A stretch of DNA of 32,501 nt, from the NCBI GenBank assembly GCA_025455785.1, contig JALOLV010000003.1:1-32501 (forward strand), written 5' to 3'. The notes beneath the pieces were generated by a model. It did not search any database. It was given only the letters and a program-made list of their open reading frames with translations, and was not told the origin of the DNA. This DNA is from Spirosomataceae bacterium (lineage in GTDB: Bacteria; Bacteroidota; Bacteroidia; Cytophagales; Spirosomataceae). Shown piece after piece: positions 5,012 through 29,668 of the stretch (its first letter is position 1; every line of letters begins with the position of its first letter). The position numbers were made by a program, and so were the translations under genes.

Positions 5012-5071
5012 TTCTGAAAATTATATAAACCACTACGAATAATATATAACAATCCATTGTAATAAAATTCG

Positions 5072-5079
5072 GATATTTG
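5072..5079 (+). promoter_or_regulatory. Possible -7 element of the copper operon
   Basis: GATATTTG differs at one base from the Bacteroidota -7 consensus TAnnTTTG and lies 18 nt before the ATG at 5098. A TTG stands 12 nt upstream, shorter than the usual gap, so the assignment is weak. It is the best candidate in the 86-nt gap that opens the long copper operon. Confidence 0.35.
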
Positions 5080-5097
5080 TGAATCATTTAATACGAA

Positions 5098-5526
5098 ATG
5101 AAGAAAAGACTTTCACAAATCGTTTGTTTATTTATGGCATTCCAAGTGCTTTTTGCAAGCATGGGGTTTACTGTAATTGAACATTTGTGTAAAGTAAGAG
5201 GGAAACAAACTTTTGTAGTATCTGCACCTAAATGTTGTTCTGAAAGAAAAGATTTACCAATATCTACTAAGAAGCAACACCTCAAAAAGACTAAATGCTG
5301 CCAAGAACATACTTCTGTTTACAAAATTAGTACAGAATCGCCCAACGGTAATTCTGTTGAATTCCAAAATCCAGTTCTTTCTTGGAGAGATTCAATAAAA
5401 GTTACATTTCCATTCGAAGGATGGGAAAGTGAACCAGTATCTTTTGGTATTTCGCATTTCTACGATACTGCCCCCCCTTTAGCAGGAAGAAGTCTGCTCA
5501 TACATATTCAAACTTTCTTGATTTGA
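5098..5526 (+). CDS. HYC_CC_PP family small secreted protein
   Basis: This 142-residue protein has an N-terminal signal or anchor segment (about 5-24) and the hallmark order of the HYC_CC_PP family. These are a His-x-Cys near the processed N-terminus (His29, Cys31), paired cysteines (Cys46-Cys47, and here also Cys67-Cys68), and a C-terminal Pro-Pro segment, TAPPLAGRSLLIHIQTFLI (124-142). Members are typically encoded next to TonB-dependent receptors or heavy-metal genes in Bacteroidota, and no biochemical function is established that I know of. Here it opens the copper operon, 75 nt before a TonB receptor start. The Cys pairs suggest periplasmic metal binding, which is inference. Confidence 0.8.
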   Translation: MKKRLSQIVCLFMAFQVLFASMGFTVIEHLCKVRGKQTFVVSAPKCCSERKDLPISTKKQHLKKTKCCQEHTSVYKISTESPNGNSVEFQNPVLSWRDSIKVTFPFEGWESEPVSFGISHFYDTAPPLAGRSLLIHIQTFLI

Positions 5527-5550
5527 TTTTTTTGATTATTCATTCTCAGA

Positions 5551-5566
5551 CCAAGTTTCTACTTGG
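5551..5566. other. Short hairpin between the HYC_CC_PP and receptor genes
   Basis: CCAAGT and ACTTGG pair perfectly around a TTCT loop in the 75-nt gap before the receptor ATG at 5602. It has no following T-run, so it is unlikely to be a strong terminator. A role in mRNA processing or differential expression within the operon is possible. Confidence 0.3.
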
Positions 5567-5601
5567 GTGAACTTGTTATTCTCAATCAAAATCAAATCTT
5601 T

Positions 5602-7827
5602 ATGTTATTCTATTTTAGAAATCTTATTTTAGGATTCTTTATCCTATGTTCTTACAGTACATTTTCTCAAACCTTAAATGGTATTGTTTTAGAAAAGAAA
5701 GCCGATGGCAAAACTGAACCAATTATTGGAGCGGTACTTCGTTGGCAAAATGCAAAAAATGGTACTTCCGCCGATATAGATGGTAAATTTTCAATTCTTA
5801 AATCTCCTCAGAATCATCAACTTATTATAAGTTCTATTGGTTTTAAGACCGATACCCTCATGGTTCATTCGAGTGATTTCCTCACGATATACTTACAAAC
5901 CGAATCATCAACTCTTCAAGAAGTAGTTGTCAGAAGTGAAGCTACAGTAATTGATAGGTTAAGCCCTATACAAACGGAAATAATTACAACAAAAGCTCTT
6001 GCTAAAGCAGCTTGCTGTAATCTATCCGAAAGTTTTGAAACAAATGCCAGTGTTTCTGTAAGTTATGCAGATGCTGTTACTGGTTCTAAACAAATTCAGC
6101 TATTAGGTCTAAGTGGTAACTATGTTCAGACGAACTCTGAAAATATCCCAAATATCAGAGGTTTAAACACAACTTTTGGTTTAAACTATGTTCCCGGAAC
6201 TTGGATTAGTTCAATTGATGTGGGCAAGGGTGCGGGTTCGGTCGTCAATGGATATGAATCCATGACGGGTCAAATCAATATAGAATTACAAAAGCCTGAT
6301 TTGGCTGAAAAACTATACCTTAATACTTATGTCAATTCATTTGGGCGTGGAGAAATAAATCTCAATTTAGCTAAAAAGCTCAATAAAAAATGGTCAGTAG
6401 GTTTACTCAGTCATGCTTCTACATTACAAAACAGAATTGACAAGAATGGTGATGGTTTTTTGGATATTCCTCTTTATAATCAATACAATGCAATAAATCG
6501 CTGGAAGTATGCAACGGATAAGTATATGGTACAATTCGGTATCAAAGGATTATATGAAGACCGTTTGGGTGGACAAAGTGGTTTTAGACCAGAGCAAAGA
6601 GGTTCTTCATTAACCTACGGTTTCGGTAGTCAAACCAAACGCATCGAGTTTTTTAGTAAAACGGCTAAATTATACCAAAGTAAACCGTATAAAGGTTTAG
6701 GTTTAATTGTAAATGGGACTGTGCATGATAACCAATCCTTTTTTGGGCTTCGTAGCTATTCTGGTTTACAAAAGACATTTTATGCAAACCTCATTTACCA
6801 AAATATTTTCGGAAACACTAATCATCAATACAAAACGGGGTTAAGTTACCTGCTCGATGACTATAACGAAACTCTTTCGGGTATTGCTCCACGAATTCGT
6901 CAAGAATCAATACCAGGAGCATTCTTTGAATATACCTATACTTTGCCCGAAAAACTAACCGTTGTGGCAGGTGGTAGAGTGGATTTTCACAACTTGTACG
7001 GCACCAGATTTACCCCAAGAATTCACGCAAAATATGACATTAGTAAAGATGTTCATTTGCGAGCAAGTGCTGGAAAAGGTTGGAGAGTAGCTAATCCATT
7101 AGCTGAAAATTACGGATTATTAGTCAGTTCCCGATTTGTTGAATTTGAGAACCAATTAAGACCAGAAGAATCTTGGAATTTTGGTATGAGTCTGAGTAAT
7201 GAATTTCATTTATTTGGAAATAAAGCGTCCTTTATCATTGATGCTTATCGAACCAACTTCCAAAATCAAGTGATTGTAGACATGGAAACCGCAGGATTGC
7301 TACGCTTCTACAATTTACAGGGCCGTTCTTTTTCAAATAGCTTTCAAGCAGAGTTAAATTATATTCCTGCAAAAAGATTTGACATTAAGGTAGCTTATCG
7401 ACTTTTTGACGTTAAAAACGACTTCATTCAAGCTGACGGTAGTCTAAAATTACAAACTAAACAATTCTTGAACCGAGATAGATTTTTATTCAATATTGGA
7501 TATGCTTTGCCTTATGATAAATGGAAATTTGATTTAACATGGCAATGGAATGGAGCAAGAAGAATCCCTACAATGCCACAACATATTGAGGATTACACAG
7601 TGTTGCCTACTTCTGCACCTGCTTACTCAAATATCAATGCCCAACTGACTCGTAGTTTCTTAAAATGGGATATGTATATAGGTGGCGAAAACCTAAATAA
7701 TTTTACCCAAAGAAACCCAATTTTTGCGTCAGATGACCCATTTGGAAGGCATTTTGATGCTGGGATGGCATGGGGACCAGTCATAGGAAGAATGATATAT
7801 GCAGGTATGAGATTCAAACTAAAATAA
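5602..7827 (+). CDS. TonB-dependent receptor, copper-operon type
   Basis: This outer-membrane TonB-dependent receptor has about 741 residues from the ATG at 5602. A TTG at 5563 in the same frame would add 13 polar residues ahead of a normal signal peptide, so the ATG is preferred. The signal peptide (about 1-23) is followed by a carboxypeptidase-regulatory-like beta domain, then a plug with the segment AKAACCNLSESFETN containing adjacent Cys138-Cys139, and then a 22-strand-type barrel ending in an aromatic/charged terminus. The Cys-Cys plug and the AVTGSKQIQLLG segment are typical of receptors found with copper-handling genes in Bacteroidota. The substrate is probably copper or a copper complex. 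It lies between HYC_CC_PP and an HMA-AraC regulator gene 12 nt downstream. Confidence 0.88.
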   Translation: MLFYFRNLILGFFILCSYSTFSQTLNGIVLEKKADGKTEPIIGAVLRWQNAKNGTSADIDGKFSILKSPQNHQLIISSIGFKTDTLMVHSSDFLTIYLQTESSTLQEVVVRSEATVIDRLSPIQTEIITTKALAKAACCNLSESFETNASVSVSYADAVTGSKQIQLLGLSGNYVQTNSENIPNIRGLNTTFGLNYVPGTWISSIDVGKGAGSVVNGYESMTGQINIELQKPDLAEKLYLNTYVNSFGRGEINLNLAKKLNKKWSVGLLSHASTLQNRIDKNGDGFLDIPLYNQYNAINRWKYATDKYMVQFGIKGLYEDRLGGQSGFRPEQRGSSLTYGFGSQTKRIEFFSKTAKLYQSKPYKGLGLIVNGTVHDNQSFFGLRSYSGLQKTFYANLIYQNIFGNTNHQYKTGLSYLLDDYNETLSGIAPRIRQESIPGAFFEYTYTLPEKLTVVAGGRVDFHNLYGTRFTPRIHAKYDISKDVHLRASAGKGWRVANPLAENYGLLVSSRFVEFENQLRPEESWNFGMSLSNEFHLFGNKASFIIDAYRTNFQNQVIVDMETAGLLRFYNLQGRSFSNSFQAELNYIPAKRFDIKVAYRLFDVKNDFIQADGSLKLQTKQFLNRDRFLFNIGYALPYDKWKFDLTWQWNGARRIPTMPQHIEDYTVLPTSAPAYSNINAQLTRSFLKWDMYIGGENLNNFTQRNPIFASDDPFGRHFDAGMAWGPVIGRMIYAGMRFKLK

Positions 7828-7839
7828 ATCGGAAATATC

Positions 7840-8403
7840 ATGATTTTATATATTAAAAATATGGTATGCGACCGATGTAAAATGGTGGTGGCAGACCTTT
7901 TCAAAAAGAATAATATTTTAACAACAAAAATTGATTTAGGAGTGGTTGAAACCAACACTAACTTGGAAGAAAGTCAACTCTTAGCAATTTCAAAAGATTT
8001 GAAATCGTATGGATTTGAAGTATTAGATGATAAACGCAAACAAATAGTTCATATCATCAAAACATCCATTATTGAGTTAGTACAAGTACAACCCGAACAG
8101 TTACAAAGAATAAATCCATCTGCCTACATTGCTGAAAAGTTAGGGAGGGATTATAAGTATCTGACTACCCTTTTTTCAGAAGTTGAAGGAACAACCATTG
8201 AGCAATTTTTGATAAATCAAAAGATTGAAAAAGTTAAAGAACTTTTGGTTTATGACGAATATTCCTTGAGTCAGATAGCAGACTTACTGTATTATAGCAG
8301 TGTACAACACCTTTCGATGCAATTTAAGAAAGTAACAGGATTAACACCAAGTCATTTTAAACAATTAAAGGAGAACAAACGGACATCAATTAATCAAATT
8401 TAA
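7840..8403 (+). CDS. AraC-family regulator with N-terminal HMA-like domain
   Basis: The protein has 187 residues. The first 65 resemble a heavy-metal-associated (HMA) ferredoxin fold: YIKNMVCDRCKMVV supplies the metal-binding CxxC (Cys10, Cys13), followed by a predicted second strand and a GFEVLDD end like other HMA domains. Residues about 95-180 are an AraC/XylS-type double helix-turn-helix, with the closing signature SLSQIADLLYYSS...HLSMQFKKVTGLTPSHFK. The combination suggests a one-component sensor that binds Cu(I) or another soft metal directly and controls this operon. It sits within the copper operon, 12 nt after the receptor and 3 nt before the propeller gene. The direction of response (activator or repressor) cannot be read from sequence. 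Confidence 0.8.
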   Translation: MILYIKNMVCDRCKMVVADLFKKNNILTTKIDLGVVETNTNLEESQLLAISKDLKSYGFEVLDDKRKQIVHIIKTSIIELVQVQPEQLQRINPSAYIAEKLGRDYKYLTTLFSEVEGTTIEQFLINQKIEKVKELLVYDEYSLSQIADLLYYSSVQHLSMQFKKVTGLTPSHFKQLKENKRTSINQI

Positions 8404-8406
8404 GTA

Positions 8407-9468
8407 ATGAAAAAAATTCTTATATCAAGTTTATTTTTAAGTCTCGGTTCATGTATGAACATGAACACGGTACAACCCGAATTGAACATTAACTACCCAG
8501 CAGCTTATGTAGTAAATGGAGAAAGCAGTACGTTGTCTGTCATCAATTTAAATACGAATGAGGTAACCAGCACTATTCAATTAACTGATGGAACAGGTAC
8601 ACCAATGGCAGGAATGAATATGGGGAAATCATTAGCATATCCACACCATATTTATCTCAATCCAAGTAAAACCGAACTTTCAATTGCCGCTCCTGGGATG
8701 GATTTAAGTGCAGGCCATTCCATAAATACTATGGGAATGGTTGGTAAAGTTGCCGTGTTGAATGCAACAAAAGGGGTGAATATTAAAGTTTTTGATTCTA
8801 TAGGGATGAATCATAATGCAATTTACTCACCAGATGGTAAGGAAATTTGGACTTCTCAAATGGACGTTAATGGAAAAGTTTTGGTCTATGATGCAAATAG
8901 TTACGCCTTAAAAAACACCATTTCGGTAGGAAAAGAACCAGCCGAAATTACCTTTTCGATGGACGGAACTGTGGCTTTTGTAGCCAATGGAGAAGATAAT
9001 ACAGTTTCGGCAATTAATCCAACAAGCAAAGCCATTTTAGCAACAATTCCAGTCGGAAAAAATCCAGTTGGAGCATGGGTAGGTGCAGATGGGCGTATGT
9101 ATGTTGATAACGAAGATGGACAGACGGTTTCAATCATTGATGTAAAAACATTAAAAGTTGTAGAAACTGTTGTTCTTGGATTCATGCCGGGCTTTGTAGC
9201 ATACAATGCTGATATGAAAGAAATGTGGGTTACAGACCCCAATGCAGGTAAAGTGCATTGGTGGACAAAAGATGTCTCAGGTAAAATGGTTCATAGTGGA
9301 GCTTTTTCAACAGCGGCAGGGACACATGCCATTGCATTCAAAGAAATGTCAGCATACATAACAAATCAAGAAGCTGCCAGTGTTTCAGTGGTTGATGTTA
9401 TGCAACATAAGGTAGTCAAAAATATTTCGGTGGGTAAAAAACCAAATGGAATTGTCATTAAACTTTAA
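8407..9468 (+). CDS. YncE-like beta-propeller lipoprotein
   Basis: This 353-residue protein begins with a lipoprotein signal peptide; the lipobox LGSC puts the lipidated residue at Cys16. The mature part is built of repeated blades of the YVTN/YncE type, for example STLSVINLNTNEV, NTVSAINPTSKAI, QTVSIIDVKTLKV and ASVSVVDVMQHKV, each followed by GKxPxG or similar loops. This indicates a periplasmic or surface seven-bladed propeller. An inserted Met/His-rich stretch around residues 60-80 (AGMNMGKSLAYPHH) and further GMxL/GMxH loops could touch copper. The start is 3 nt after the AraC gene stop and the next gene is a multicopper oxidase, so it may be a partner or electron or metal shuttle for that oxidase. 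That partnership is inference. Confidence 0.8.
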   Translation: MKKILISSLFLSLGSCMNMNTVQPELNINYPAAYVVNGESSTLSVINLNTNEVTSTIQLTDGTGTPMAGMNMGKSLAYPHHIYLNPSKTELSIAAPGMDLSAGHSINTMGMVGKVAVLNATKGVNIKVFDSIGMNHNAIYSPDGKEIWTSQMDVNGKVLVYDANSYALKNTISVGKEPAEITFSMDGTVAFVANGEDNTVSAINPTSKAILATIPVGKNPVGAWVGADGRMYVDNEDGQTVSIIDVKTLKVVETVVLGFMPGFVAYNADMKEMWVTDPNAGKVHWWTKDVSGKMVHSGAFSTAAGTHAIAFKEMSAYITNQEAASVSVVDVMQHKVVKNISVGKKPNGIVIKL

Positions 9469-9498
9469 CCTATTATCTAAATTAAACAACAAAATCAG

Positions 9499-10956
9499 AT
9501 GAAGAACAAAAAAATTAATAGACGTATTTTTTTTCAAAGGTTGGGAGTCGGGGTCGGCTCAACCTATTTGCTTCAAAACTGTATGAGTAATATGAATCAT
9601 GGAACAAGTGACCCCGTTCCAGTGGCAAGTGATGCTACTTTTAAAAATATCCTAAAAATACCTGAAACACTCTCTAACCCTACAACATTTATTGCTCAAT
9701 CTGTTCAAGATACAATCATGGACGGCAAAACTGTAAAATATTTAGGCTACAGAAATGGGCTTTTAGGTCCGACAATAAGGATGCAAAAAGGTTCTACTTT
9801 CAATGCTAAATTAACTAATCAATTAGCTGAACATACCAATATCCATTGGCATGGTTTGGTTATTCCAGCCGATATGGATGGACATCCTGACCAAATGGTT
9901 ATGGCAAATGAGTCATTCAATTACCGATTTACACTCAACCAACAAGCTGGTACGAATTGGTATCATCCTCATGTACATGGTACAACTGCAAAGCAAGTAA
10001 CACAGGGTTTATCTGGTTTGTTTATTGTAGAAACTCCCGAAGAAAAAGCTCTAAATTTGCCAAGTGGTACTTTTGAAATTCCATTGGTAATTCAAGACAA
10101 ACGGTTCAACACCGATGGAACAATTAAGTATAGCCCAACCATGATGGAGGTTATGAGTGGGTATCTGGGAGATAATATTTTAGTAAACGGTACAGCATCA
10201 CCCTATCTCAATGTATCAACTCGATTTTATCGTTTCAGAATACTAAATGGCTCAACCGCTCGCATCTATAATTTAGCTCTCAGTAACGGTGCTGAATTTT
10301 ATATCATTGGCTCGGATGGTGGAATCTTGGAAAAACCAGAAACGGTAAAAGAAACTTTGTTAGGCTCAGGTGAACGATTAGATATACTAATTGATTTCTC
10401 TAATATTGCTATCAATACTGAAGTCTTTTTGGAAAGTAAAACGTTCTCAGGAATGGGTACAGCACAAGGTACTCAGGCATTCAAGATTTTGAAATTTATT
10501 GTGAATAAGCAAGAATCTAATACTTTCAAGTTACCTGCATCTCTTATTCCACTCCCAAATCTGTCGGGTTCAAACAAAAAACGGAGCTTTAGTTTAACCA
10601 TGACTATGAATATGTCAGGCGGAATGCACCGAATCAACAATAAAGTGTTCAGTAGTCAACGTATAGATGAAACCGTCAATTTAGGCTCAACCGAAACATG
10701 GGAGTTTGATAATTCGACAGGCGACGAACCGCACCCAATGCACATTCATGGCGTACAGTTCCAAGTATTGAGCCGTATTGGTGGGAGAAATACTTTGTTT
10801 CCACACGAAAAAGGTTGGAAAGATACTGTTTTGGTAGCTCCAAAAGAAAAAGTACAAGTAATAATGAAATTTGAACAAAAAGGAAAATTCGTATTTCATT
10901 GCCATAATCTCGAACATGAGGATGATGGTATGATGCTCAATTTTGAAGTAAAATAA
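9499..10956 (+). CDS. Multicopper oxidase with Tat signal, probable periplasmic Cu(I) oxidase
   Basis: This 485-residue three-cupredoxin oxidase has all four copper motifs: HWH (116-118), YHPHVH (His156, His158, His160), HPMHIH (His412, His415, His417) and HCHNLEH with the type 1 Cys468, His473 and axial Met478. The N-terminus NRRIFFQRLG carries twin arginines (8-9) with a weakly hydrophobic core, so export through Tat with copper already loaded is likely. Cys28 in LLQNC could be a lipobox. The family includes CueO, which converts toxic Cu(I) to Cu(II) in the periplasm. It lacks the long Met-rich loop seen in CueO and in the second oxidase at 18873. It lies between the propeller and HMA genes of the same operon. 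Confidence 0.9.
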   Translation: MKNKKINRRIFFQRLGVGVGSTYLLQNCMSNMNHGTSDPVPVASDATFKNILKIPETLSNPTTFIAQSVQDTIMDGKTVKYLGYRNGLLGPTIRMQKGSTFNAKLTNQLAEHTNIHWHGLVIPADMDGHPDQMVMANESFNYRFTLNQQAGTNWYHPHVHGTTAKQVTQGLSGLFIVETPEEKALNLPSGTFEIPLVIQDKRFNTDGTIKYSPTMMEVMSGYLGDNILVNGTASPYLNVSTRFYRFRILNGSTARIYNLALSNGAEFYIIGSDGGILEKPETVKETLLGSGERLDILIDFSNIAINTEVFLESKTFSGMGTAQGTQAFKILKFIVNKQESNTFKLPASLIPLPNLSGSNKKRSFSLTMTMNMSGGMHRINNKVFSSQRIDETVNLGSTETWEFDNSTGDEPHPMHIHGVQFQVLSRIGGRNTLFPHEKGWKDTVLVAPKEKVQVIMKFEQKGKFVFHCHNLEHEDDGMMLNFEVK

Positions 10957-10982
10957 TTGTTAAACTAAATAATCAAAAACCA

Positions 10983-11336
10983 ATGAAATCAACTATTTTT
11001 TCAGTAATCGCAATCTTATTTATTTCAGTTTTTAGTGTAGCTTTTAAGGTTACACCCCCTGCAAAGGTTAAGATTAAAACTTCTGCCATCTGTGAAATGT
11101 GTAAAGAACGCATAGAAAAACAATTAGCATTCACGAAAGGTGTAGAAGATGCTAATCTCGATTTGAAAGATAAAGTTGTAACCATTAGTTATAATGCAAA
11201 AAAAACAGATGTGGCAAAACTAAAAAAGGCTATCAATGATGCAGGTTACGATGCAGATGAGACGGCATCAAACCCAAAAAGTTACGAAAAACTACCATCA
11301 TGTTGTAAAAAAGATGGTGAAGCAATGCACCATTAA
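10983..11336 (+). CDS. Secreted heavy-metal-associated (HMA) domain protein
   Basis: This 117-residue protein has a signal peptide (about 1-21) and one HMA fold at about 26-95. The metal loop is AICEMCKERI with Cys37 and Cys40, and the closing segment AINDAGYDADE is typical of HMA domains. The C-terminal tail adds a Cys-Cys pair and a Met-His-His end, which could form a second metal site. Unlike cytosolic CopZ chaperones it should be periplasmic, so it probably buffers or shuttles copper or mercury outside the cytosol. It is spaced 26 nt from both neighbours inside the operon. The alternative is a MerP-like mercury-binding protein, but the copper context favours copper. Confidence 0.85.
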   Translation: MKSTIFSVIAILFISVFSVAFKVTPPAKVKIKTSAICEMCKERIEKQLAFTKGVEDANLDLKDKVVTISYNAKKTDVAKLKKAINDAGYDADETASNPKSYEKLPSCCKKDGEAMHH

Positions 11337-11362
11337 TTATCCATAATTTCAATAAAATACTT

Positions 11363-12748
11363 ATGAAAAAAATAGCAATTATATTGTTTTGGGGAATGTT
11401 CCAAGCGGCTAATGCCCAAGTTGAACTCAAAACACCACCACCAAGCCCAGAAGCTGAGTGGAAACAGAAAGTTGGTTTTACCGACATCAGTATTAAATAT
11501 GAAAAACCTTTGATGCGTGGTCGTAAAATTTTTGGAGCATTGGTACCATTCGACCAAATTTGGCGTACAGGTGCAGGAGAAAGTACCCGCATTCGTGTAA
11601 GTGATGATATAACTTTTGGTGGTCAATCATTAAAAAAAGGTTACTACTCTCTCTTTACAATTCCAAATCCTAATGAATGGACTATAATATTAAATGCAGA
11701 TACGACCAGCCATGGTGCATTCAGCTATGATGATAAAAAAGACATCTTTCGTATAAAAATCAAGCCAGAAACGACCATTAGGACGTATGAATCGTTTTCA
11801 ATTTCATTGGAAGACATCATGCCAAATCATTCTGCACATTTATATCTAAACTGGGAAAATACGCAAATTAAAATTCCTATTCAAAGTAATGCCGATGCAG
11901 TTGTAATGAATGAAATCAATCAGAAAATAAATATTGAAAAATTGGAAGATGCTAAATTCTTTAACAATGCTGCTCAATATTACTTCTCGAATAAAAAAGA
12001 CTTAAAACAAGCATTGCTTTGGTCAAAAAAATCGGAGGAAATGGTAGAAGATAATTATTATTATGCCAATCTAACGACCAAAATTTTAGAAGAGCAGAAA
12101 GATTATAGTGCAGCTCTTAAATCAGCACAGAAGGCTGTAGAATTGGGGACAAAAAAGAACATGAAAACTGCTGTTGAGAACTGGCAGAAAAAAATAATTG
12201 AATGGCAGAAGATTACAGGTATTTCGTCCCCAAATGTAAATACGCTAACGGCTGATAGTGGTAATGGTCACGAAAATCATACTCATGCTGGACATAACAT
12301 GACACCACCAAAAGAAACACAAACAAAATCAGGCTTACAACCCATTTTAGATGCCTATTATGCTATAAAAGATGCAATGGTTGCATCTGATGCACAAGCA
12401 TCAGCAAAAGCAGCAAACACACTCGTATCAGCAATGAAAGCAGTAGATATGGGTAAAATGGAAATGAAACAACACATGGAGTTTATGAAAGTAAACGCCA
12501 AAATTATCGCCGATGCTCAGAAAATTGCAGACTCAAAAGACTTGAAAAAACAAAGAGAAACCTTTCAGAGTCTTTCTGATAATTTCTACACAATGGCAAA
12601 AGGCGTAAAACTTTCTACCGAGCCTATTTATCAGCAGTACTGTCCGATGAAAAAAGCCGCATGGTTGAGTAATGAATCATCGGTTAAAAACCCTTACTAT
12701 GGCAGTTCAATGCTTACTTGTGGCAAGGTACAAGATACTATAAAGTAA
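11363..12748 (+). CDS. DUF2911-DUF3347 fusion, periplasmic
   Basis: This 461-residue secreted protein has a signal peptide at 1-19 and several modules. Residues about 22-180 are DUF2911, recognisable from SPEAEWKQKVG, GRKIFG and QIWRTGAGESTRI. About 195-280 look like helical TPR-type repeats. A His-rich linker follows near 300-314 (HENHTHAGHN). About 325-435 are DUF3347, an all-helical domain with the DAYYAIKDAMVASD start and the YCPM segment before a terminal MLTCG. DUF3347 often lies beside or inside CusB-like efflux adaptor proteins, and the Cys-Pro-Met and late Cys may bind metal. DUF2911 has no settled function that I know of. It is the last gene of the operon, followed at once by a terminator hairpin. 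Confidence 0.8.
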   Translation: MKKIAIILFWGMFQAANAQVELKTPPPSPEAEWKQKVGFTDISIKYEKPLMRGRKIFGALVPFDQIWRTGAGESTRIRVSDDITFGGQSLKKGYYSLFTIPNPNEWTIILNADTTSHGAFSYDDKKDIFRIKIKPETTIRTYESFSISLEDIMPNHSAHLYLNWENTQIKIPIQSNADAVVMNEINQKINIEKLEDAKFFNNAAQYYFSNKKDLKQALLWSKKSEEMVEDNYYYANLTTKILEEQKDYSAALKSAQKAVELGTKKNMKTAVENWQKKIIEWQKITGISSPNVNTLTADSGNGHENHTHAGHNMTPPKETQTKSGLQPILDAYYAIKDAMVASDAQASAKAANTLVSAMKAVDMGKMEMKQHMEFMKVNAKIIADAQKIADSKDLKKQRETFQSLSDNFYTMAKGVKLSTEPIYQQYCPMKKAAWLSNESSVKNPYYGSSMLTCGKVQDTIK

Positions 12749-12760
12749 ATTTACTCAAAT

Positions 12761-12796
12761 AAAAGAGATTCAATCTATTGAAAGAATCTCTTTTAT
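12761..12796 (+). terminator. Hairpin terminator of the first copper operon
   Basis: AAAAGAGATTC (12761-12771) and GAATCTCTTTT (12784-12794) form a perfect 11-bp stem with a 12-nt loop, 12 nt after the stop at 12748. The terminal T-run belongs to the stem. The position marks the end of the 5098-12748 operon. Confidence 0.75.
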
Positions 12797-12855
12797 CATC
12801 TTCAATTATCTACTCCGATAATTATATAAATCTAATCCAAAAAGGTGTAATCAAA

Positions 12856-12880
12856 TTTGTTCTATCCCCCTATAACTTTG
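12856..12880 (+). promoter_or_regulatory. Bacteroidota-type promoter of copA
   Basis: TAACTTTG at 12873-12880 fits the -7 consensus TAnnTTTG exactly. TTTG at 12856-12859 may be the -33 element, although the 13-nt gap is a little short. It lies between the terminator and the copA ATG at 12903 and supports a separate copA transcript. Confidence 0.5.
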
Positions 12881-12902
12881 TCCTATCAAACTAATCAGAC
12901 AA

Positions 12903-15323
12903 ATGGATATAAACAAAAATAATACTTACGAGATACCGCTTGAAGGAGTGGAAAGCGAACATTGTGCCTTAATAATTGACAAGGGTTTAAGCAAAATTGA
13001 GGGAATCATTAATCATAAAGTTGAACTCAATAATAATAAAGCCATCATAACAACTCTACCCAACAACGAAATACTTGGCAAAGCCATCAAAGAAATTCAA
13101 GACTTAGGTTATGGTGTAAGCTCGATGAAAAAAAACTTATCTGTATCAAATATGACTTGTGCCAGTTGTGCCAGCAGCGTACAGAGTATTCTTGAAAATC
13201 AGGAGGGGGTTATCAAAGCCAATGTTAATTATGCCAATGCCAATGCTCAAATAGAATATATTCCCACAATTACTGATACCAAAAAATTTAAAGTAGCACT
13301 TCAAGCAGTAGGATATGATTTAATGATTGATGAAACGGAAGAAGCCAAAGAAGAATTAGAAAAAGTAAAAGAGCATAAATTCAATCAGCTCAAGCAAAAA
13401 ACAATAAGCTCAATCATCTTATCCATACCAATAGTTATAATCGCCATGTTTTTTATGGATTTACCGTATGGCAATTATATTATGTGGGCATTATCCACAC
13501 CTGTGCTTTTTGTATTTGGCAGACTGTTTTTCATAAACGCATGGAAACAAACCAAACATCGCTCTGCCAATATGGATACCTTAGTAGCTTTAAGTACGGG
13601 CGTTGCTTATATTTTTAGTGTTTTTAATACGCTGTTTCCGTCTTATTGGCACAATAAAGGTTTGCACGCCCATGTCTATTTTGAAGCGGCTGCCGTTGTT
13701 ATAGCCTTTATATTATTAGGAAAATGGTTGGAAGAACGTGCCAAAGGAAATACTTCATCAGCCTTAAAAAAGTTAATGGGCCTACAACCACGAAATGCTA
13801 CGATTGTCCATGAAGGGGGACATCAAATGGAAGTTGCAATAGCTGAAATAAAGATAGGTGATATAATTTTGGTCAAACCAGGTGAGAAGATTCCAGTAGA
13901 TGGAGAAATTATTAGCGGTAATTCATTCATTGATGAAAGTATGCTAAGTGGTGAGCCTATTCCAGTTGAAAAGACCAATTCAGATAAAGTATTTGCTGGT
14001 ACAATCAATCAGAAAGGTAGTTTTCAGTTCAAGGCAACTAAAGTTGGAAGCGACACCATTTTGGCACAAATCATAAAAATGGTGCAGGAAGCACAAGGAA
14101 GTAAAGCTCCGATTCAGAAATTAGTTGATAAAATAGCTGGTATATTCGTTCCTATCGTCATAATTATTGCCATTGTAACACTCATTGCTTGGATAATTTT
14201 TGGAGGAGAAAACGGACTAACACAAGGTTTATTGGCAATGGTTACAGTTTTGGTTATTGCCTGCCCGTGTGCATTAGGGTTAGCCACCCCAACTGCAATC
14301 ATGTCTGGAGTTGGCAAGGGAGCTGAAAATGGCATTCTCATCAAAGATGCCGAAAGCCTCGAATTAGCAAGTAAAATTAATGCAGTAGTCTTGGATAAAA
14401 CAGGAACAATCACTGAAGGCAAGCCAACTGTAACTGATGTTTATTGGAAAAATGAAAATAAAGAGATTCCTTCTGTCTTGGTATCCATTGAAAAGCAATC
14501 CGAACATCCATTAGCAGAAGCAATTCTAAATTATTATAAAGATATTTTAACTGTTCCTGTGCATCACTTTGAAAGCATTACTGGTTTTGGAGCAAAAGCC
14601 ACTATTGGCACAGAAACCTATTTTGTTGGCAATGAAAATCTTTTAACTCATCAACAAATAAGCATTAAATCCGAAATAAAGGAAAAAGCACAACAATGGC
14701 TAAATGAGGCAAAGACAGTAATCTGGTTTGCCAACTCAACAGAGGCTTTAGCCGTGATAGCTATCGAAGACCAAATAAAAGAAACCTCCAAACAAGCAAT
14801 CATGACATTGCAAAATAAAGGGATAGATGTGTATATGCTCACAGGCGATAACCCTAAAACAGCCGCTTTGATAGCTAAGAAAGCTGGAATAAATAATTTT
14901 AAAGCTGAAGTATTACCCGCACAAAAAGCAGAGTTTATCAAAGAGTTACAACAAAAAGGTCATGTAGTGGCGATGGTTGGCGATGGCATTAATGATAGTA
15001 ATGCCTTAGCACAAGCCGATGTGAGTATTGCAATGGGAAAAGGCTCTGATATAGCAATGGATGTGGCAAAAATGACCATTATTTCATCAGATTTAACAAA
15101 AATTTCACAGGCAATTAAGCTATCAAAAATCACAACCACTACTATTCGTCAAAACCTTTTTTGGGCTTTTATTTATAATATCATCGGAATCCCTATTGCT
15201 GCTGGCGTTCTTTACCCAAGCTACGGGTATCTACTCAATCCCATGATTGCAGGTGCAGCAATGGCATTAAGTTCTGTTTCTGTGGTTAGTAACAGCCTTC
15301 GATTAAAAAGAAAATCTTTATAA
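12903..15323 (+). CDS. copA: Copper-exporting P-type ATPase (CopA)
   Basis: This 806-residue P1B-type ATPase pumps Cu(I) from cytosol to periplasm. It has a membrane CPC motif (Cys454-Pro455-Cys456), phosphorylation loop DKTGT (Asp498), the nucleotide-site HP pair in EHPLAEAIL, and hinge GDGIND (693-698). The last transmembrane segments carry the NLFWAFIYN and [15 protein letters not shown] signatures of CopA. There are two N-terminal HMA-like domains. The second (about 77-145) has a normal MTCASC loop (Cys86, Cys89). The first (about 9-75) keeps the fold pattern but has one Cys in place of CxxC (SEHCALII), so it has probably lost normal metal binding. It opens the second copper operon, followed by a CopZ-like gene 32 nt later. 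Confidence 0.96.
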
Positions 15324-18872: not shown

Positions 18873-21176
18873 ATGAAAACACTACCAATAATCCTTTTAC
18901 TATGTCCCTTTGCTATTTTTGCTCAACACGAACATCATCAAACCAATACTTCTCATCAAGAATCAACTTTATCAACAATACAAGTTCAATCATCTATACA
19001 AAACTATGTTTCCAAAACGGTCAGATACGAGTTATTTGTTAGAGATACGTTGGTAAACTACTCTGGTAAAACTAAACGAGCAATCGCAGTAAATGGACAA
19101 ATTCCGATGCCAACCCTCTCTTTTACAGAAGGAGACACCGCTGAAATAGTAGTGCATAATGAATTAAAAGAAAGCACTTCTTTACACTGGCATGGACTGA
19201 TTTTGCCTAATAAAGAGGACGGTGTTCCGTATCTTACTCAGATGCCGATTAAACCCAAAACCACGCATACTTATCGCTTTCCAATTGTCCAGAATGGAAC
19301 GCATTGGTATCATAGTCATAGTGGTTTGCAGGAGCAAATCGGTATGTATGGAAGTTTTGTGATGAATAAAAAAGCCGATAGTCCTACTTTTAGAAAAGGA
19401 ATAGATGACTTACCTACGATTCCTATTATTCTCAGTGAATGGACGGACTTTAATCCAAATAACGTACATCGAATGTTGCATAATGCAACTGATTGGTTTG
19501 CTATAAAGAAAGGTACTACTCAAAGCTATTCCGAAGCAATAAAGCAAGGGTATATGGGAACAAAACTTAAAAATGAATGGAAAAGAATGACAGCGATGGA
19601 TGTTAGTGATGTTTACTACGAAAAATTTTTAATCAATGGAAAACCCGAATATAATCTTTCTCAATTTAAAGCAGGTGATAAAGTACGGCTAAGGATTTCA
19701 AACGGAGGTGCTTCTACCTATTTTTGGTTAAATTATGCAGGTGGTAAAATCACCGTAGTTGCCAGCGACGGAAACGATGTAGAACCAGTGGATGTTGATA
19801 GAATGATAATTGCAGTCTCAGAAACCTATGATGTAGTTGTTACAATTCCAGATAATATGAGTTATGAGTTCTTAGCAACCGCCGAAGACCGTACTAAATC
19901 AACTTCTCTGTGGTTGGGTGAAGGTATGAAAATGAAAGCTACTTCGATGCCCAAACTCAAATATTTTGAAGGAATGAAAATGATGAACGATATGATGAAT
20001 TTGGATGGGAGTATGGATGATATGGGAATGAGCATGAGCCTCCAACAAATGGATATGAATACAGTGATGTATCCAGAAATTACGGGAAGTACCGAAAAAA
20101 AGTCAGATAATATGGTTGGAATGAACATGAGTCACTCCAACCATTCTACTTCACCTGAAAGCATAACAACTTTAAATTATGCCATGTTGAAATCACCTAT
20201 CACTACATCTTTGCCAGCACTAGCACCTGAGAAGTTATTGAAATTTGAGTTAACAGGCAACATGAATCGATATGTCTGGAGTATGGATAATAAAGTTGTC
20301 TCTGAAACTGATAAGATTTTAATTAAAAAAGGAGAAAATGTAAAGATTATCCTCTATAATGGCTCAATGATGCGACACCCCATGCACTTGCATGGACACG
20401 ATTTTAGGCTTTTAAACGGTCAGGGTGCTTACTCCCCACTTAAAAATATTATTGACATCATGCCAATGGAAACAGATACTCTCGAATTCAATGCGAATAT
20501 TGAGGGAGATTGGTTCTTTCATTGTCATATCCTTTACCACATGATGAGTGGTATGGGTCGGGTTTTTACTTATGAAAACCAAGCGGCAAATCCTTATATA
20601 CCTAATCCTAAATATGCTTGGAGAAAATTAGGAGCAGAAGATAAAAAACTTCATTTTATGGCAGAAAATGATATTGCAACCAACGGAAATGATGGACAGT
20701 TGATGCTTCAAAATACCCGCTGGAGCATTGGTACAGAGTGGCGGCTGGGATACAATGCGATGCACGGCTACGAGACCGAGACTCATATTGGGCGGTATAT
20801 TGGTAAAATGCAATGGTTCATGCCATTTATAGGCTTTGATTGGCGATACCGAGTAAATGGAATGGATATGGTTGAAAAAAACCTTTTTGGACAGACCAGT
20901 ACAAAGGATAATCGAGGTTTATTTAGTGTAGGATTCAATTATACATTACCTTTTTTAGTACGTTTCCAATCGGAGGTTTTTACAGATGGTAATTTTCGTA
21001 TGCAGTTAGCAAGAGAGGATATTCCACTAAGTAAGCGTTTAAGAGGAATGTTTATGGTCAATACCGATAAAGAATACATGGGTGGAATTGACTATATTTT
21101 TGGTAAAAATATTCGTGGCAGAGTTCATTATGACAGTGATATGGGTTGGGGCGTGGGAATTGGATTGAATTACTAA
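18873..21176 (+). CDS. Multicopper oxidase fused to CopB/PcoB-like outer-membrane barrel
   Basis: This 767-residue two-part protein has a Sec signal peptide ending near residue 17 and no twin arginine. Residues about 45-575 are a CopA/PcoA-type multicopper oxidase with HWH (105-107), HWYHSH (144-149), HPMHLHGH (502-509), and the type 1 site HCHILYH with Cys551, His556 and Met561. A Met- and Asp-rich loop (about 350-425, with many DMxM and MxM units) is a probable Cu(I) reservoir as in PcoA/CueO. Residues about 580-767 are a short beta-barrel of the CopB/PcoB type, rich in aromatic and alternating residues (TEWRLGYNAMHGYETETHIG) and ending in VGIGLNY. PcoA and PcoB are normally separate proteins, so this fusion would tether the oxidase to the outer membrane. 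Confidence 0.88.
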   Translation: MKTLPIILLLCPFAIFAQHEHHQTNTSHQESTLSTIQVQSSIQNYVSKTVRYELFVRDTLVNYSGKTKRAIAVNGQIPMPTLSFTEGDTAEIVVHNELKESTSLHWHGLILPNKEDGVPYLTQMPIKPKTTHTYRFPIVQNGTHWYHSHSGLQEQIGMYGSFVMNKKADSPTFRKGIDDLPTIPIILSEWTDFNPNNVHRMLHNATDWFAIKKGTTQSYSEAIKQGYMGTKLKNEWKRMTAMDVSDVYYEKFLINGKPEYNLSQFKAGDKVRLRISNGGASTYFWLNYAGGKITVVASDGNDVEPVDVDRMIIAVSETYDVVVTIPDNMSYEFLATAEDRTKSTSLWLGEGMKMKATSMPKLKYFEGMKMMNDMMNLDGSMDDMGMSMSLQQMDMNTVMYPEITGSTEKKSDNMVGMNMSHSNHSTSPESITTLNYAMLKSPITTSLPALAPEKLLKFELTGNMNRYVWSMDNKVVSETDKILIKKGENVKIILYNGSMMRHPMHLHGHDFRLLNGQGAYSPLKNIIDIMPMETDTLEFNANIEGDWFFHCHILYHMMSGMGRVFTYENQAANPYIPNPKYAWRKLGAEDKKLHFMAENDIATNGNDGQLMLQNTRWSIGTEWRLGYNAMHGYETETHIGRYIGKMQWFMPFIGFDWRYRVNGMDMVEKNLFGQTSTKDNRGLFSVGFNYTLPFLVRFQSEVFTDGNFRMQLAREDIPLSKRLRGMFMVNTDKEYMGGIDYIFGKNIRGRVHYDSDMGWGVGIGLNY

Positions 21177-28679: not shown

Positions 28680-29051
28680 ATGAATAATCAAGAAATTAGT
28701 TGCATTAGGGTCTTTGCCGACCAAGTTCAAATTCAAACTTGTAAAAAACAGATAAAAAGTGTCGAAACCTCACTTACAAATCTTGCACAGGTTTTAAATT
28801 TGGCAGGAAATGAGGTTCGCTTAAAAATTTTGTATCTACTCGACCAAGAGAAAGAGCTTTGTCCATGTGATATTTCTGATATTTTGGGAATGAGCATTCC
28901 AGCAATTTCTCAACATCTTCGTAAACTTAAAGATGCAAACATTATTCAATTTCGTAAAGTTGGGCAAACCATTTTTTATTCTTTAAAATCTAATCACTTT
29001 GTGATTATTAAACCATTATTTCAACATATTCAACAACCAGAATTAGTTTGA
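28680..29051 (+). CDS. ArsR/SmtB metal-sensing repressor of the mercury cassette
   Basis: This 123-residue winged-helix repressor has the ArsR signature LNLAGNEVRLKILYLLDQEKELCPCDISDILGMSIPAISQHLRKLKDANII (about 39-90). The sequence ELCPCD supplies Cys61 and Cys63, at the position of the ELCVCD metal site of ArsR/CadC, and the N-terminus adds Cys8 and Cys21 as in CadC. It therefore probably binds Hg(II), Cd(II) or Pb(II) with a thiolate site. The gene stop TGA overlaps the MerTP start by one base (TGATG), so they are one operon. Nested inverted repeats lie upstream. The ligand is inferred from the neighbouring MerTP gene; arsenic or cadmium cannot be ruled out. Confidence 0.9.
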   Translation: MNNQEISCIRVFADQVQIQTCKKQIKSVETSLTNLAQVLNLAGNEVRLKILYLLDQEKELCPCDISDILGMSIPAISQHLRKLKDANIIQFRKVGQTIFYSLKSNHFVIIKPLFQHIQQPELV

Positions 29052-29668
29052 TGAAAAACATCGTTTCACTTCCGAATTTAAGTATTGTTACGGCTTTGGC
29101 ATCTTCACTCTGTTGTATCATGCCGATTGTTGCAGTTTTAGCAGGTACAACGGGTATCGCTTCTACTTTTTCTTGGCTCGACTCCGCAAGACCTTTTTTG
29201 GTCGGTTCATCTACTTTTATTTTAGGATTTGCTTGGTATCAAAAATTTAAAACACAAAAGCAAAGAGCAAATGAACCGCTTAATTGCAATTGTGAATCAG
29301 AAAATAAGAAGTCATTTTGGCAATCTAAAACATTTTTAACAATGGTAACTATTTTATCAATTTCACTTTTATCATTTCCGAACTACTCTCATTTTATTTT
29401 TCAAAAACCCGATAATCAGTCTATACTAAGTCAAACAGATTCAACTAACAAATTTATGATTTCAATTAGTGGAATGACTTGTACTGGTTGTGAAGTTCAT
29501 GTAAAATCTGAAATCAGTAAACTAAAAGGGATTATAACGACGCAGGTTTCTTATGAAAAAGCAAATGCAATCGTGAAATTTGATAACAAGAAGACAAACA
29601 TTAAAGAAATTACAAAAGCAATTAACTCAACTGGTTATAAGGTTGTAAACTATAAAATCATATTATAA
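29051..29668 (+). CDS. merTP: MerTP fusion mercuric transporter
   Basis: The protein has 205 residues from the ATG at 29051; a TTG three bases earlier would add one residue. The MerT part has its first transmembrane helix with the Cys21-Cys22 pair (SSLCCIMPIVAVLAGTTGIAS), a second helix at about 46-62, a cytosolic loop with Cys79 and Cys81, and a third helix at about 95-110. The C-terminal part (135-205) is a MerP-like HMA domain with GMTCTGCEVHV (Cys144, Cys147). This fusion carries Hg(II) through the inner membrane. The gene overlaps arsR by one base and the next gene by one base (TAATG). Uptake makes sense only with a cytosolic detoxifier such as MerA, which is not seen in this window. Confidence 0.9.
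   Translation: MKNIVSLPNLSIVTALASSLCCIMPIVAVLAGTTGIASTFSWLDSARPFLVGSSTFILGFAWYQKFKTQKQRANEPLNCNCESENKKSFWQSKTFLTMVTILSISLLSFPNYSHFIFQKPDNQSILSQTDSTNKFMISISGMTCTGCEVHVKSEISKLKGIITTQVSYEKANAIVKFDNKKTNIKEITKAINSTGYKVVNYKIIL

Follow-up and report, generated by a model that had tools for sequence, protein, structure and literature searches.

A putative Cu(I)-responsive HMA-AraC regulator of Bacteroidota and the direct-repeat operator linked to its gene

We analyzed a 32,501-nucleotide stretch of DNA from a Spirosomataceae bacterium (the whole of this stretch is the window referred to below) and found that a gene within its copper operon encodes a protein in which an AraC-type DNA-binding domain is preceded by an HMA-fold domain whose MxCxRC loop is invariant. 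Sequence comparisons also tie this gene, by position and by co-occurrence, to a direct-repeat operator, for which there are no binding data. The protein is likely a cytosolic one-component activator that responds to Cu(I); its metal binding and the sign of its regulation are inferred, since no metal-binding, DNA-binding, or expression data are available.

Architecture and distribution of the regulator

The regulator ORF at positions 7840-8403 of the + strand is real, beginning with ATG and encoding 187 amino acids, and is divided as follows.

7840..8403, + strand: HMA-AraC regulator gene, 187 aa
7840..8028, + strand: N-terminal HMA-like (ferredoxin-fold) domain, residues 1-63 (family profile against PDB, Pfam of relatives, AF2, VIA-align)
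7861..7878, + strand: metal-loop motif M-V-C-D-R-C, residues 8-13 (invariant cysteines)
8032..8379, + strand: AraC-type double helix-turn-helix domain, residues 65-180 (PF12833, VIA-align)

The AraC-type helix-turn-helix (HTH) was matched by both PF12833 (E 7.7e-16, residues 97-175) and PF00165 (E 3.6e-10), and this part of the protein aligned by VIA-align with Z scores of 14.9 to 6swi and 13.2 to MarA-DNA (1bl0). No MerR-type HTH was matched in Pfam or NCBIfam, and the protein gave no match to the CsoR domain, PF02583. The first-pass annotation had proposed a CxxC at Cys10/Cys13 in an HMA-like N terminus ahead of an AraC HTH and had suggested an HMA profile search of the N terminus. Searched as a single sequence, the window regulator gave no Pfam HMA match, and the question was decided by a family profile instead. 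Positions 3-62 of a 69-sequence profile matched the solved HMA domains of copper ATPases and CopZ (ATP7B 7xuk, E 1.1e-6; Bacillus subtilis CopA 1p6t, E 4.7e-6; CopZ 6ff2, E 1.3e-3), and 33 of the 69 relatives matched PF00403 individually (E<=1; best E 6.8e-5). The AlphaFold model, with a mean pLDDT of 92, showed a beta-alpha-beta-beta-alpha-beta domain at residues 2-62 followed by helices at 65-180. Fold similarity alone was rejected as proof of an HMA domain: the first domain aligned with CopZ, Atx1, GolB, and HAH1 at Z scores of 7.3-7.9, and values of 7.2-8.2 were common to unrelated ACT-type ferredoxin folds. Because of this tie, the HMA assignment rests on the profile and the motif. The proposed domain arrangement thus held (family profile, Pfam matches of relatives, and AlphaFold), as did the placement of the two cysteines at residues 10 and 13 (M8-V9-C10-D11-R12-C13).

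Residues M8, V9, C10, R12, and C13 were invariant in all 85 database relatives compared, while the rest of the N-terminal domain was mostly variable, so that conservation was concentrated in the metal loop. Because the seed of the database search itself contained the motif, a further 23 copies were examined, 20 of them divergent ones from a genome survey (41-48% identical) and 3 from plasmids, and MxCxxC was kept in every one. These two counts (85/85 and 23/23) demonstrate that the conservation of the CxxC is not due to chance. When 395 Bacteroidota genomes were sampled with a membership cutoff of E <= 1e-20, the family was present in 181, and it also occurred in 30 plasmid records, all from Bacteroidota genera, in which it was mostly named "AraC family transcriptional regulator" or "helix-turn-helix domain-containing protein." The regulator had initially been framed in its local setting only, but the family is in fact phylum-wide. 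The genome from which the window comes encodes the regulator twice, and the other copy (62% identical) is in a parallel operon on contig C224. Three loci (L038, L056, and L073) hold an additional, divergent HMA-AraC copy, 33-43% identical, whose metal loop reads GMVC rather than NMVC, and a different metal or target is possible for these copies.

The copper operon and its neighbors

The genes surrounding the regulator in the window are the following.

5098..5526, + strand: HYC_CC_PP family protein, first gene of the operon (NF047658)
5563..7827, + strand: TonB-dependent receptor (PF00593)
8407..9468, + strand: YncE-like beta-propeller gene
9499..10956, + strand: CueO-like multicopper oxidase
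10983..11336, + strand: HMA (CopZ/MerP-like) protein, probably periplasmic (PF00403; signal-like N terminus judged by eye)
11363..12748, + strand: DUF2911/DUF3347 protein
12903..15323, + strand: CopA, Cu(I) P1B-1 ATPase (TIGR01511)

The order in the window is therefore HYC_CC_PP, TonB receptor, regulator, beta-propeller, multicopper oxidase, HMA protein, DUF2911, and copA, and much of it is retained in Emticicia and Arcicella relatives. The first-pass annotation had placed the regulator inside a copper operon with all other local regulators outside it. Both statements held, the first by the presence of the multicopper oxidase, the HMA protein, and then CopA, and the second by the positions of a Crp/Fnr-like ORF (25610) and an ArsR-like ORF (28680), both identified by eye from their translations. 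An inverted repeat resembling an intrinsic terminator, AAAAGAGATTC...GAATCTCTTTT, is found at 12763-12796 between the DUF2911 gene and copA, which makes copA probably a separate transcription unit, consistent with its having its own operator.

Copper genes also accompany the regulator elsewhere. Of 82 loci, 44 had a CopA homologue within 5 kb of the HMA-AraC gene, and 43 of 49 neighboring ATPases carried the complete set of P1B-1 Cu(I) transmembrane motifs. Multicopper oxidases recurred both in the loci of relatives and on plasmids, and HMA chaperone genes adjoined many copies. The neighbors of the three plasmid copies examined were multicopper oxidases, P-type ATPases, or efflux pumps. Some neighbors, identified by eye, were not strictly copper genes (an SO_0444-like Cu/Zn permease, a CDF transporter, and MerT-like proteins), and the metal may thus differ among subfamilies.

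Three other features of these regions were observed. The TonB receptor at 5563-7827 has an AACCNLSESFE motif near its plug, and a receptor lying directly behind an operator in another family (L113) shares ACCNL with it; the two possibly represent a copper-related receptor type. A 767-aa multicopper-oxidase-like ORF at 18873-21176 seemingly runs into a CopB-like C-terminal region and, judged by eye, may be a CopA-CopB fusion; no operator was found nearby. At 28680-29668, the ArsR-like gene precedes one for a MerT-like membrane protein that has an HMA-like domain at its C terminus; the two form a further metal module, which lacks the HMA-AraC operator.

A direct-repeat operator in the window and in other clades

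Promoters had been guessed in the first-pass annotation at 5012-5097 and 12797-12902. Both regions carry a conserved direct repeat with the consensus AAATntTAtAAatC-atttCcAaAATnnTgtAAca and half-sites 21 bp apart, and in both the repeat is at an equal distance from the -7 element.

5016..5051, + strand: operator 1, GAAAATTATATAAACC-ACTAC-GAATAATATATAACA, two direct half-sites with 21-bp spacing, ahead of the 5098 operon (footprinting, rarity, matrix)
5076..5079, + strand: TTTG of the -7 element, 26 bp after operator 1
12817..12853, + strand: operator 2, GATAATTATATAAATCTAATCCAAAAAGGTGTAATCA, upstream of copA (footprinting, held-out matrix 19.7)
12873..12880, + strand: -7 element of the copA promoter, TAACTTTG, its TTTG beginning 26 bp past operator 2

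Phylogenetic footprinting by DNA alignment of 11 loci left a single conserved block, GAAAATTATATAAA, upstream of the 5098 operon, and copA was preceded by the same block at each of the three loci compared. It occurs four times in the 4-Mb genome, twice at the two window promoters. The two-half-site form also has four occurrences: the two window promoters, the parallel operon on C224, and a fourth location. The short box GAWAATTATATAAA was rejected as an operator by itself: one of its four genome matches is intragenic, within coding sequence, and another is upstream of an unrelated hydrolase gene. Both the pair of half-sites and their spacing are required. A held-out matrix made from 24 sites of other clades was used to scan both strands of the window and ranked 12821 (score, 19.7) and 5020 (19.6) as its top two positions, with the next at 8.0. 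An enrichment p value was also obtained in a held-out matrix test, but shared ancestry inflates it, and no weight is placed on it.

As a guard against circularity, motifs were searched for de novo in 50 nonredundant regions from other clades that lie just downstream of the regulator gene. A direct repeat of two half-sites, tTAtAAaTCntttCCAaAATnnTgTAAcA, was recovered in 31 of the 50, with a log-likelihood of 414 versus 80-95 for shuffled sets, and approximately 40% of the regions lacked the motif. Measured from the second half-site, the -7 element's TTTG lay 25 or 26 bp away in 23 of 28 loci with the operator pattern, compared to a mean of 0.4 and a maximum of 4 loci when flanks were shuffled; at both window promoters, the distance is 26 bp.

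A strict pattern derived from other clades, TRYAAMTCNNNNCCAWAATNNTRYAA, matched 14 of the 395 Bacteroidota genomes, and its reversed control gave 1 match. All 14 genomes carry the regulator, versus 181 of 395 overall (p 1.4e-5, a value that ignores shared ancestry, about ten of the 14 genomes coming from one family). For 13 of the 14 sites, an HMA-AraC gene lies no more than approximately 0.7 kb upstream. The first ORF after each of these sites starts 74-88 bp from the start of the site, and its product is CopA, a MerT-like HMA protein, some other HMA-bearing protein, or a TonB receptor, the site usually being just ahead of a P-type ATPase or HMA gene. Plasmids showed a like arrangement, with the site before an HYC_CC_PP gene in Runella (82 bp) and before an ATPase in Mucilaginibacter. 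A loose two-half pattern was also tried on 19 relatives and discarded, as its matches were about as frequent as those of the reversed control, making it too permissive beyond the genus.

Two sites away from the usual setting were noted. The only strict operator of the 14 not near a regulator gene, at position 1501 of locus L116 (genome G206), is followed by a 96-aa ORF and is either an extra regulon member or a chance match. In Emticicia sp. BO119 (locus L008), tandem near-perfect half-sites, GATAATTATATAAA...GGAAAATTATATAAGG, are present near 2498 on the - strand. A two-component regulator/kinase pair, divergent from the copper operon, follows approximately 350 bp downstream of them.

Proposed mechanism, alternatives, and known copper sensors

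In the mechanism we propose, two HMA-AraC subunits would bind the half-sites spaced 21 bp apart, the downstream half-site sitting in place of a -33 element. Cu(I) would load the Cys10/Cys13 site, either directly or via an HMA chaperone, and the loaded protein would recruit RNA polymerase and turn on efflux and detoxification genes. Its predicted targets include its own operon (5098-12748) and copA (12903). We further speculate that Cu(I) shared between two HMA domains may stabilize the DNA-binding dimer. The operator ends at about -33 and a half-site fills the -33 position, a geometry that favors an activator over a repressor; activation is inferred solely from this geometry. The inference that copper is the ligand draws on the fold of the HMA domain, its invariant CxxC, and the nature of the target genes. 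The one-component copper sensor envisaged in the first-pass annotation is therefore supported, while Cu(I) binding by the HMA domain and the switching of transcription remain inferences. A bolder reading, which we judge less likely than not, is that the HMA-AraC family constitutes a new class of metalloregulator, the Bacteroidota-wide cytosolic Cu(I) sensor. In it, a metallochaperone fold would serve as the sensor, and dimerization, driven by Cu(I) shared by two HMA domains, would take place on a 21-bp direct repeat standing in for the -33 element.

The alternative that survives best is that the ligand is another soft metal or several of them (Zn, Cd, Ag, or Hg) rather than Cu(I) specifically, and this remains possible. 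CxxC HMA domains are also found in Zn and Hg proteins, and some relatives adjoin Cu/Zn permeases or CDF or MerT-like genes. Against it, the solved HMA domains best matched by the profile are mainly those of copper ATPases and CopZ, 43 of 49 neighboring ATPases have the P1B-1 signature, and multicopper oxidases recur in the neighborhoods. We consider it unlikely that the protein is a repressor whose apo form occupies the direct repeat until released by Cu(I), as with CsoR or CopY. The operator does touch the -33 position, where RNA polymerase could also be blocked, but it is upstream of the -7/start region and not over it, keeps a spacing from the -7 box that is constant to within 1 bp, and places one of its own half-sites at the -33 position. 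AraC-family proteins mostly activate, which also counts against a repressor. It is similarly improbable that the HMA domain is a docking module through which the regulator responds, by protein contact, to a metal-loaded CopZ or CopA HMA domain. Chaperone and ATPase HMA domains do exchange copper by docking, and HMA chaperone genes adjoin many copies of the regulator, but conservation is centered on the metal loop, suggesting that metal is held there at least transiently. That the operator is read by another regulator, with HMA-AraC an unrelated neighbor, can be all but dismissed even though no DNA-binding experiment exists, given that the regulator is present in every one of the 14 strict-site genomes, with 13 of the 14 sites within approximately 0.7 kb of its gene, and that two direct half-sites spaced 21 bp apart are typical of AraC-family proteins.

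The Cu(I)-responsive activator that we favor can be compared to several known systems. CueR is likewise a one-component Cu(I) activator of copA and a multicopper oxidase and holds its metal on two cysteines, features that are inferred for the regulator described here. However, CueR has a MerR fold, acts by DNA distortion, and has its operator between -35 and -10, whereas the regulator has an AraC HTH, a putative HMA sensor, and, as its inferred operator, a direct repeat upstream of -7. None of 148 Bacteroidota genomes reached the curated CueR cutoff. With E. coli AraC and the AraC/XylS family, the regulator shares the C-terminal double HTH and, in its inferred operator, two direct half-sites approximately 21 bp apart beside the promoter, but AraC senses arabinose with a cupin domain, in place of which the regulator has a 63-residue HMA domain. 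That domain has the ferredoxin fold and MxCxxC loop of the CopZ/Atx1 chaperones and the CopA/ATP7B HMA domains. Those proteins carry or export copper, whereas the regulator's domain is fused to a DNA-binding domain, and the residue preceding the M of the loop is G in them and N in the regulator.

CsoR is also a cytosolic Cu(I) sensor that controls copA in other bacteria, but it is an all-helical repressor. CsoR-family proteins were present in 43 of the 148 Bacteroidota genomes, mostly in a single family (f18) in which HMA-AraC is largely missing, and none (PF02583) was found in the window's own genome, the assembly of which is only 66% complete. Mutual exclusion of CsoR and HMA-AraC is not claimed: only 5 genomes had both versus approximately 21 expected (p 6e-9), but nearly all of the effect came from one family, without which p = 0.13. 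Finally, CusRS/CopRS systems, homologues of which are reported in Bacteroidota (PMC10141476), also control copper-resistance genes but sense periplasmic copper through a kinase.

In a survey of copper signaling, the few marine Bacteroidota included yielded two-component and ECF homologues only (PMC10141476). A study of copper genes in the genome of the flavobacterium Bizionia listed MerR, CopY, and ArsR candidates, the MerR and CopY ones without a copper site, and did not mention the HMA-AraC family (PMC11213822). No description of this AraC/HMA family as a metal regulator was found in the literature searched, which did not cover subscription papers. The parts are of known kinds; their combination, the operator, and the spread of the family appear to be undescribed. 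Known one-component copper sensors are scarce in Bacteroidota, and HMA-AraC appears to fill their place. It would do so by using a metallochaperone fold as a DNA-bound sensor, an inference for which there are no binding data. With a regulator, a defined operator, a rule-like spacing, and a set of targets now identified, copper sensing in this major phylum becomes directly testable.
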